A stretch of 64,000 nucleotides of DNA from Pagrus major (taxonomy: Eukaryota; Chordata; Actinopteri; Spariformes; Sparidae), in assembly GCF_040436345.1 (NCBI RefSeq), contig NC_133230.1, forward strand, positions 24,190,197 through 24,254,196, read 5' to 3'. Under the pieces are notes generated by a model. It was not told the DNA's origin, did no database searches, and saw only the letters and a program-made list of their open reading frames with translations. Both the position numbers and the translations under genes were made by a program. Shown piece by piece: positions 54,501 to 56,123 of this stretch (position 1 is the first letter of the stretch; each line of letters begins with the position of its first letter).

Positions 54501-56123
54501 TCAGCCTCAGGTTAAAGCGGAACACCAACGATGTCTCCCCACAAATGGCTTTTCATTGGATTCAACTGAGAGCAGCGCCCTCAGCCCATCTTCCCTCTCT
54601 GATTCGGACCTGCTAGAGGCCGTGTTAGAGGGCACCTCCAGCCTGGTACCTGAGAAGCTGGTGCCTGAGGAGCCAGCGGATATTAGTGTGACTGTTCAGA
54701 TCACGGAAAGTCCTTTACCTGATACAGACAATGTGCCACAGAGCAGTGAAAGCAATAAAAAGGGAAGTGGGAAAGGTGAAACTAGTGATAAAATAAGCAG
54801 AGATTTAACAGAGAGTGTAGGACAAGAGAAGGGTCAAGAGGAGCAGGAACACATTATCGTAAAAACACCCGACCAAGATGAGGTCGTGAGTTTCAAACAT
54901 TCGGACGCTAAAAGCAGTGTGACTACACTCAGTGAGGGCATCGAAGGGTGGGACGTCCCCGATGGACTGCGATCAGAAGATCTGCCATCAGTGTCTGAAG
55001 CAGTGCCTCCATCTCTTGAGCCCAAACCAAAGAAACAGCAGAGCCTCTTTAAACGAAACAGAAAGAAGAGTAATCAAGGTAATCCATCCATTAACTTCAA
55101 TAAAGATCATGTTTGGAATGCTAGACTCTTCATATGTTTTAAAAGGAAATCCTTATTTGTTTTATTTTTAATGCATTTAACTTTTTATATTTTCTGTATG
55201 GGCTATTTTAGTGTGTATTCATAAGTATTTTTGCATGGTCACATGCATTTTATTAAAGAGTATCTGTGTTGCAGTGTGCTGCGCCTGATTTGCAGATTGA
55301 TTATTGAATGGATTTAAATATGGCCAGTTTGTTTGAATGCTCTGTTCTCCGTTCTGAAACACAAGGTAACAGTGGGAAAGGACACACTAAACATAAAAAA
55401 GGCTGTGTGTTGCAGTGAGGTAGGTCCAGTCGGTGGGATGGCAAAACTGTAAGCAGGAATATCATCCTAATGAATTCAATCACCGTCGACGCTTTTGTCC
55501 AAAATAACACGTCATCTGTTGGTCTAACTGGAATCTGGAGTCCATTTGTCTATGTTGTCCGGCTTTTAACACTCACTCTCGCTTTAACACTCAGTGATCA
55601 GGCCCTTAATCTTAACAGCATTGATCAAATGTGTCTTGAGGTGATTCTTATGTCCATCAAACCAGGGGAAAACTAATCCTGAAAGTATGATTATGTGCCG
55701 CAATTAATCCTCTAAGTAAATTCTCTGATCTCAAACAGCCTCGCAGTCTGTGGAGTCTTTGTGAAGTCATCGTGGACCGAGTTATTTTCATGAAAGCTGT
55801 CACTTTTTTATGTCTCTCCTTCCATATTTTCTTGTCCATTCCCCCTCCCCCCTCCCCCAAATCTGCAACTGGGACTGTTTAACTTACTAACACAGTCTCG
55901 TGTGCTTCCTGTAAACTGTGCTTTGTTAATCTTGACTTTGATGAAAGATCCTGTGTGTGATGTAAATGCATTAAAGATGTTTTTACCACTTAAAAAAAAA
56001 AGTTTTTAAAAGATATTAAAGTAATTTATTTAGACACATTTCGATTCTGAGTATTCATTTTTGTCTTTGTTTCCCGTAGGTGACTCCAGAAAAAGGAAAT
56101 CAAGAGGAAAAAGAAAATGTTAA
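45578..56123 (+). CDS. inf2: inverted formin-2 (main, non-CAAX form)
   Basis: INF2 nucleates and elongates actin filaments and also severs them; it acts on ER and mitochondrial fission and on membrane traffic. Exons: 45578-45974, 47353-47468, 47683-47842, 48985-49018, 49303-49444, 49612-49744, 49998-50603, 51488-51633, 51758-51819, 51908-52010, 52109-52194, 52286-52386, 52488-52558, 52645-52752, 52846-52916, 53011-53131, 53215-53379, 53571-53673, 53785-53937, 54197-55078, 56080-56123. This is 3804 bases, 1267 residues (human about 1240-1249). Domains in order: DID (about 30-320), proline-rich FH1 (about 385-492), FH2 from [11 protein letters not shown] to about 900, then the WH2-like autoinhibitory DAD (about 917-937, [18 protein letters not shown]). 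Exon 20 encodes a long acidic, poorly conserved tail; this form ends RGKRKC. The ATG follows an acceptor and gives the conserved MSVK start. Intron 2 has a GC donor. Confidence 0.95.
46279..46742. mobile_element. long fold-back (inverted-repeat) DNA element in inf2 intron 1
   Basis: The left end (46279-46333) and right end (46688-46742) are inverted copies of about 55 bp. Both include CAGTCATTATCTACTCACCC followed by CCATG. Inner arms also pair: 46376-46410 with 46626-46660 (core CCACAAAACATTTCTGGAGC) and 46414-46428 with 46518-46532 (AAATGGCTCCATAC). Nearly the whole 464 bp is thus an imperfect palindrome, with no coding capacity. 'cacccaaaaatgaaaattc...attatctactcaccc' ends are familiar from abundant teleost MITEs. 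Confidence 0.8.
49963..49994 (+). repeat. inf2: (TG)n tract at the acceptor of the inf2 FH1 exon
   Basis: An alternating TG run of about 32 bases (one TA interruption near the left end) ends directly in CAG, with the exon starting at 49998. There is no separate pyrimidine tract. Runs of UG in RNA are bound by TDP-43-type proteins and can weaken an acceptor, so tract length could affect inclusion of this exon. Confidence 0.85.
50297..50461 (+). repeat. inf2: in-frame duplication in the inf2 FH1 domain
   Basis: A 57-base segment at 50297-50353 recurs without mismatch at 50405-50461, an offset of 108 bases or 36 codons. Each copy encodes a [19 protein letters not shown] profilin-binding motif. 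Synonymous sites are also identical, which points to a recent tandem duplication or gene conversion rather than selection on protein alone. Confidence 0.85.
55366..55418 (+). CDS. inf2: alternative last exon of inf2 encoding a CAAX box
   Basis: Inside the last intron, an AG at 55364-55365 precedes 53 bases. Joined to exon 20 in the same phase as the main last exon (Gly codon split G/GT), these read [17 protein letters not shown] followed by TGA at 55416-55418. Cys-Val-Leu-Gln is a CAAX prenylation motif (Gln at X favours farnesyl), preceded by a basic stretch. This closely parallels the KLCVIQ end of mammalian INF2-CAAX, the ER-bound isoform. The resulting protein would be 1270 residues. The acceptor's pyrimidine tract is only fair. 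Expression is inferred. Confidence 0.8.
55970..55975 (+). promoter_or_regulatory. inf2: possible polyadenylation signal for the CAAX isoform
   Basis: ATTAAA, the commonest variant signal, lies about 550 bases after the CAAX exon stop and before the non-CAAX last exon. It would let the CAAX transcript end inside the last intron. An A-run and T-run follow at 55991-56006. Confidence 0.45.

Follow-up and report, generated by a model that had tools for sequence, protein, structure and literature searches.

The inf2 locus of Pagrus major raises the question of whether the last intron of this formin gene holds a second protein ending, one that would carry a lipid anchor. The window analyzed here, a 64,000-nucleotide stretch of the genome, includes the inf2 coding region, and the first-pass annotation had noticed in its final intron an AG-bounded segment in the same splice phase as the annotated last exon, which it took to be an alternative last exon encoding a CAAX box. 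The annotation started from the premise that mammalian INF2 has two C-termini, a CAAX form at the ER and a soluble form, and the human literature agrees: PMC11589041 describes INF2-1, which has an 18-aa alternative end with a farnesylated CAAX box and is found at the ER, and INF2-2, which has a 9-aa basic end and is cytosolic.

The inf2 gene and its last intron

The gene model was built from tblastn searches against a second inf2 copy in the same genome together with phase-matched splice sites; one small exon (48985-49018), present in both copies, was for that reason inserted manually. Splicing from the ATG at 45578 keeps the frame open across 20 coding exons and on into either end, giving proteins of 1270 aa (ending CVLQ) and 1267 aa (ending KRKC). 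The window protein has Pfam matches to FH2 (E 2.2e-80), Drf_FH3 (5.1e-29) and Drf_GBD (4e-15), with the inhibitory region upstream of FH2, and its best matches in the PDB are Inverted formin-2 chains at 492 and 580 bits, whereas other formins reach at most 70 and 161, which places it nearer to INF2. Its alignment to the 1249-residue INF2 chain 9azp_G extends to residue 1040, past the human WH2/DAD at 967-991 (PMC12871907). The calmodulin-site residues are W11, V14 and L18; the part of PMC9616786 concerned with fish INF2 gives W11, a V in place of L14, and V at position 18, so that the first two residues agree with fish proteins there while L18 is the non-fish letter. Two zebrafish inf2 primers from PMC4457406 match the window at 45630 (3 mismatches) and 47406 (2 mismatches). 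Elsewhere in the gene, the model uses a GC donor at 47468 (CAAG/GCAAGTA), making this a GC-AG intron, and the FH1 exon (about 50160-50490) is composed of near-repeated proline-rich blocks, of which a long glycine-rich open reading frame on the opposite strand is the mirror.

Exon 20 of the coding region leaves a single codon base, the G at 55078 (CAA G/gtaatc), and the segment at 55366-55418 directly follows an AG and consists of GT, 16 codons and TGA, in phase 1 and in a frame continuous with that exon (Table 1). Translated as the inclusion form, the protein has KKGCVLQ at its C-terminus, where a basic run leads into a CAAX-type box, with GCVLQ-stop in phase as in an INF2-CAAX isoform. The coordinates and reading in the first-pass annotation were correct, and the basic run followed by Cys-Val-Leu-Gln-stop that it described is there, with the frame and the C-V-x-Q-stop recurring in the diverged second copy. 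Since a donor-like GAG/GTAGGT starts one base past the stop, the exon most likely ends at 55419 rather than 55418. The phase-matched alternative downstream, at 56080, ends in the basic KRKC (stop at 56121-56123); counting the split Gly, the two C-terminal ends are 17 (CAAX) and 14 (KRKC) residues long. The CAAX exon precedes the KRKC exon, and both the window and the layout of the second copy support the order that the annotation had proposed for an alternative C-terminal exon of inf2.

Table 1. Positions in the window of the inf2 features discussed in the text, with the exon reading as preferred here
Feature	Position	Strand	Remarks
inf2 coding region: CAAX exon or last exon following 20 shared coding exons (45578-55078)	45578..56123	+	
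Coding exon 20, common to both predicted isoforms	54197..55078	+	ends CAA G, phase 1, donor GTAATCC
Candidate acceptor AG of CAAX exon	55364..55365	+	AAG type, weak, score -2.0
Putative 54-nt cassette exon, stop TGA 55416-55418	55366..55419	+	equal-length counterpart in second copy
Candidate donor GTAGGT, one base after stop	55420..55425	+	GTGAGT at same place in second copy
Last exon: coding part if cassette skipped, 3' untranslated if included	56080..56123	+	
AATAAA, candidate polyadenylation signal of shared last exon	56627..56632	+	

All donor and acceptor scores reported here use approximate weights and are uncalibrated. On this scale the donor-like site after the stop scores 9.6, a value exceeded by 4 of the 20 donors in the inf2 gene model, and the acceptor is the lowest of 21 (the other 20 range from -1.8 to 13.2); two other phase-compatible AGs within the open frame score -12.0 and -11.4. 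Two further candidates in the same intron were rejected: an acceptor at 55296 (score 5.8), which in this phase meets a stop codon at once (GAT TGA, by visual reading), and a decoy ending CVLR behind an acceptor at 55595, given that the second copy's intron offers in phase only CVSQ among C-x-x-X endings. A genome search with an 80-nt stretch of the CAAX exon region returned one match, itself, with no sign of a repeat. Searches with the CAAX peptide alone, or with a two-row profile, found no PDB chain at E values up to 10, and the human C-terminus was not found by this route. An RBFOX-like GCATG occurs once in the window's last intron (55233) and not in the intron of the second copy.

Chance expectation and a second inf2 copy

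How often such an ending arises by chance depends on how it is defined. Two null sets were used, one of 5000 dinucleotide-preserving shuffles of the 1001-nt intron and the other of 248 overlapping real 1001-nt pieces taken from both strands of the window without removing exons, and an in-phase exon of at least nine residues was demanded. Endings of the form C-aliphatic-aliphatic-X turned up in 711/5000 shuffles and 24/248 real pieces, CxxQ in 118/5000 and 7/248, and CVxQ, a pattern picked after the sequence had been seen, in 9/5000 and 1/248. Requiring a GT no more than 3 nt from the stop lowered the counts for the same three patterns to 220, 32 and 3 among the 5000 shuffles and to 4, 4 and 0 among the 248 real pieces. 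These figures are suggestive only, because the motif definition sets the figure and the tightest definition was chosen post hoc, and we rejected the motif as proof by itself since under the loose definition it is too frequent by chance. What raises the finding above chance is conservation of the exon in the second inf2 copy.

A search of the genome (786 Mb, 25 contigs) located that copy on contig G000:C22 (30741645 to about 30727400, in descending order). Its last two coding exons flank a 54-nt exon in phase 1, translating to (G)ADGGSKHKTKRGCVSQ-stop; it reads GADGGSKHKTKRGCVSQ-stop followed by TGAG/GTGAGT, and ends GCVSQ. The frame of this copy is open from the WH2/DAD exon into both endings, the second of which, GDQRRTRIHGNRTECPNDRNTKNQSNKLTSV, is longer than that of the window copy, with a basic last exon starting GD. 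The copies share the exon length, the phase, GCVxQ-stop, a basic last exon, and TGAG/GT, the candidate donor one base past the stop, but the second copy differs in having CVSQ for CVLQ, a longer second ending, and a stronger acceptor (7.6 versus -2.0); its donor-like site scores 11.7 (versus 9.6). The Ser of CVSQ stands at a CAAX position that is usually aliphatic, which counts against the reading preferred here. The CAAX-exon peptides of the two copies are identical at 8 of 17 residues.

When the two introns are aligned locally, the top-scoring segment is the 3' two-thirds of the exon plus its donor; it scores 48, and the highest value among 1000 shuffled pairs was 40. Outside the exon block we found no further conserved stretch between them. 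Within this alignment a 34-nt block matches at 27 of 34 positions; 200 shuffles produced at most 25 matches in such a block, and the real introns, once the exon block was masked, at most 20. Matches across the full exon number 28 of 54 nt and are concentrated towards its 3' end, where 19 fall in the last 24 nt as compared with 9 in the first 30. In 12 hand-chosen ungapped exon pieces, 319 of 472 residues are identical between the copies, and only 43 of 125 four-fold sites, suggesting that neutral sequence between them is close to randomized. Recent copying does not explain the exon match, because the four-fold sites are near saturation, and we infer that selection has preserved the exon end and its donor over much of the period since the copies split. 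A comparison of local synteny, with 94 kb of contig C16 (open reading frames of at least 35 aa) searched at E 1e-8 in 120 kb of C22, returned only the inf2 exons and a repeat-like match at 46579-46704; because no neighboring genes match within the 120 kb of C22, we leave the split undated and make no claim of a teleost duplication. That repeat-like match (one place in the C22 stretch) and a second at 46357-46410 (89%, two places) lie between inf2 coding exons 1 and 2 and are probably a dispersed repeat.

Competing readings of the exon

The sequence, frame, phase and splice-site layout of 55366-55419, and the matching exon of the second copy, are matters of observation. The reading that best accounts for them, to which we assign a probability of about 0.82, is that of a 54-nt alternative cassette exon of inf2, which would switch the formin between a prenylated, ER-bound C-terminus and a soluble one. 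When the cassette is included, translation would stop within it, and the protein ending KKGCVLQ would be prenylated and held on the ER membrane; the final Gln of a CAAX box leads one to expect a farnesyl group. Inclusion would also turn the shared last exon into 3' untranslated sequence, and such an mRNA should escape nonsense-mediated decay because only one base separates its stop from the last splice junction, and a stop so near that junction does not, as a general rule, trigger decay. Skipping would join exon 20 to 56080 and yield the basic, unprenylated, soluble end. Splicing-in of the exon, prenylation and ER targeting are predictions of this reading, and the pairing of a weak acceptor with a strong donor-like site suggests that inclusion may be regulated or low. 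Points against a cassette include its acceptor, the weakest of the 21, the match of little more than half of its nucleotides between the copies, and the AG 7 nt further in that would cost it the CAAX box.

The first-pass annotation had spoken of mutually exclusive last exons, and of this the alternative C-terminal exon stands, but exclusive terminal exons are less likely. Under such an arrangement the CAAX exon would continue past its stop to an intronic polyadenylation site of its own, the KRKC exon being used otherwise, and two ATTAAA hexamers, at 55970 and 56015, do lie between the CAAX exon and the last exon. However, about 0.67 AATAAA or ATTAAA hexamers are expected there from base composition, the corresponding intron of the second copy has neither, and a strong donor-like site follows the stop directly in both copies, so we regard this arrangement as improbable; a polyadenylation site belonging to the CAAX exon is not needed. 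It is because both copies carry a donor-like site directly after the stop that a cassette with a shared last exon is preferred.

Somewhat less probable again is that the window copy holds merely a chance open stretch ending C-V-L-Q, or a dead exon with a decayed acceptor. The high frequency of loose CAAX-like endings in the shuffles (711/5000), the low rank of the acceptor, and the poor match of the first 30 nt to the exon of the second copy would all fit. Against this, neither the donor nor the CVxQ-stop codons show damage, and length, phase, frame, stop and donor are the same in a copy whose four-fold sites are near-saturated. We consider it very unlikely that the main acceptor is instead the AG at 55371-55372, 7 nt further in, giving an exon at 55373-55419 that is frame-shifted, lacks the CAAX box and yields a protein of 1291 aa: that frame is open to a stop and CAG generally makes a better acceptor than AAG, but the site scores -10.0 versus -2.0 for 55366 and loses the frame common to the second copy. 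Returning to the cassette, a division of labor between the copies is conceivable, in which both would have retained the CAAX switch and the window acceptor would have weakened; that the soluble form then comes mostly from the window copy, with the second copy supplying more of the ER-bound form, is a speculative suggestion, which we think probably does not hold.

Comparison with human INF2 and KRAS

In human INF2, too, alternative splicing at the 3' end of the gene yields two C-termini, one with a CAAX box and one short and basic, of 18 and 9 residues as compared with 17 and 14 in this fish. The ER isoform of human INF2 was knocked out by deletion of exon 22, giving a band 257 bp shorter (PMC11245118), which is consistent with a separate small CAAX exon and with CAAX-first order, the human order being an inference from that description. 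Counted among coding exons the fish CAAX exon is number 21, and a single 5' non-coding exon would make it exon 22; such an exon would fit with an AG that lies five bases before the inf2 ATG and with the position of human codon 35 in exon 2 (PMC6102913). Most likely, then, 55366-55419 is the fish counterpart of a known human INF2 exon. The inf2 CAAX exon is well supported after comparison, yet it was to be expected from the human gene and is of a kind already known.

The CAAX box of human INF2 is CVIQ; the window copy has CVLQ, and this fish has two inf2 copies. A search of the open-access literature for CVIQ together with INF2 gave no match. As a lead only, a human CAAX-specific shRNA (PMC5426793) gives KETVCV in frame 3, whereas its frame 1 gives TKKLCV followed by a stop; the latter is similar to TKHKKGCV and TKRGCV of the fish, but its last three letters misfit CVIQ.

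A similar layout is found in KRAS, an unrelated protein for which exon use has been shown, whereas that of the inf2 exon is predicted. Both ends of KRAS are CAAX boxes, as compared with only one in inf2. The likeness lies in exon 4A of KRAS4A/KRAS4B, a cassette with its stop at the 3' end and the exon for the other C-terminus downstream, which in KRAS4A is left untranslated (PMC5945503); the candidate counterpart in inf2 would be the donor-like site past the stop in both copies.

Zebrafish serve as a model of INF2 kidney disease in PMC4457406, in whose main text the words isoform and CAAX are absent, and no paper on fish inf2 isoforms was found in the open-access literature among the matches listed. 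If fish have both ends, isoform-specific knock-outs would be possible and expression data would have to be read per isoform. The matching exons also suggest that the ER-bound form of INF2 is old, as it would predate the split of two near-saturated copies. Annotation can easily overlook a 54-nt exon whose stop comes so close ahead of its donor.

Elsewhere in the window, the start of an adenylosuccinate synthetase gene lies at 56962-57153, about 330 nt beyond the inf2 polyadenylation signal, and an open frame at 14694-15308 encodes Cdc42-effector (BORG_CEP) and PBD domains.
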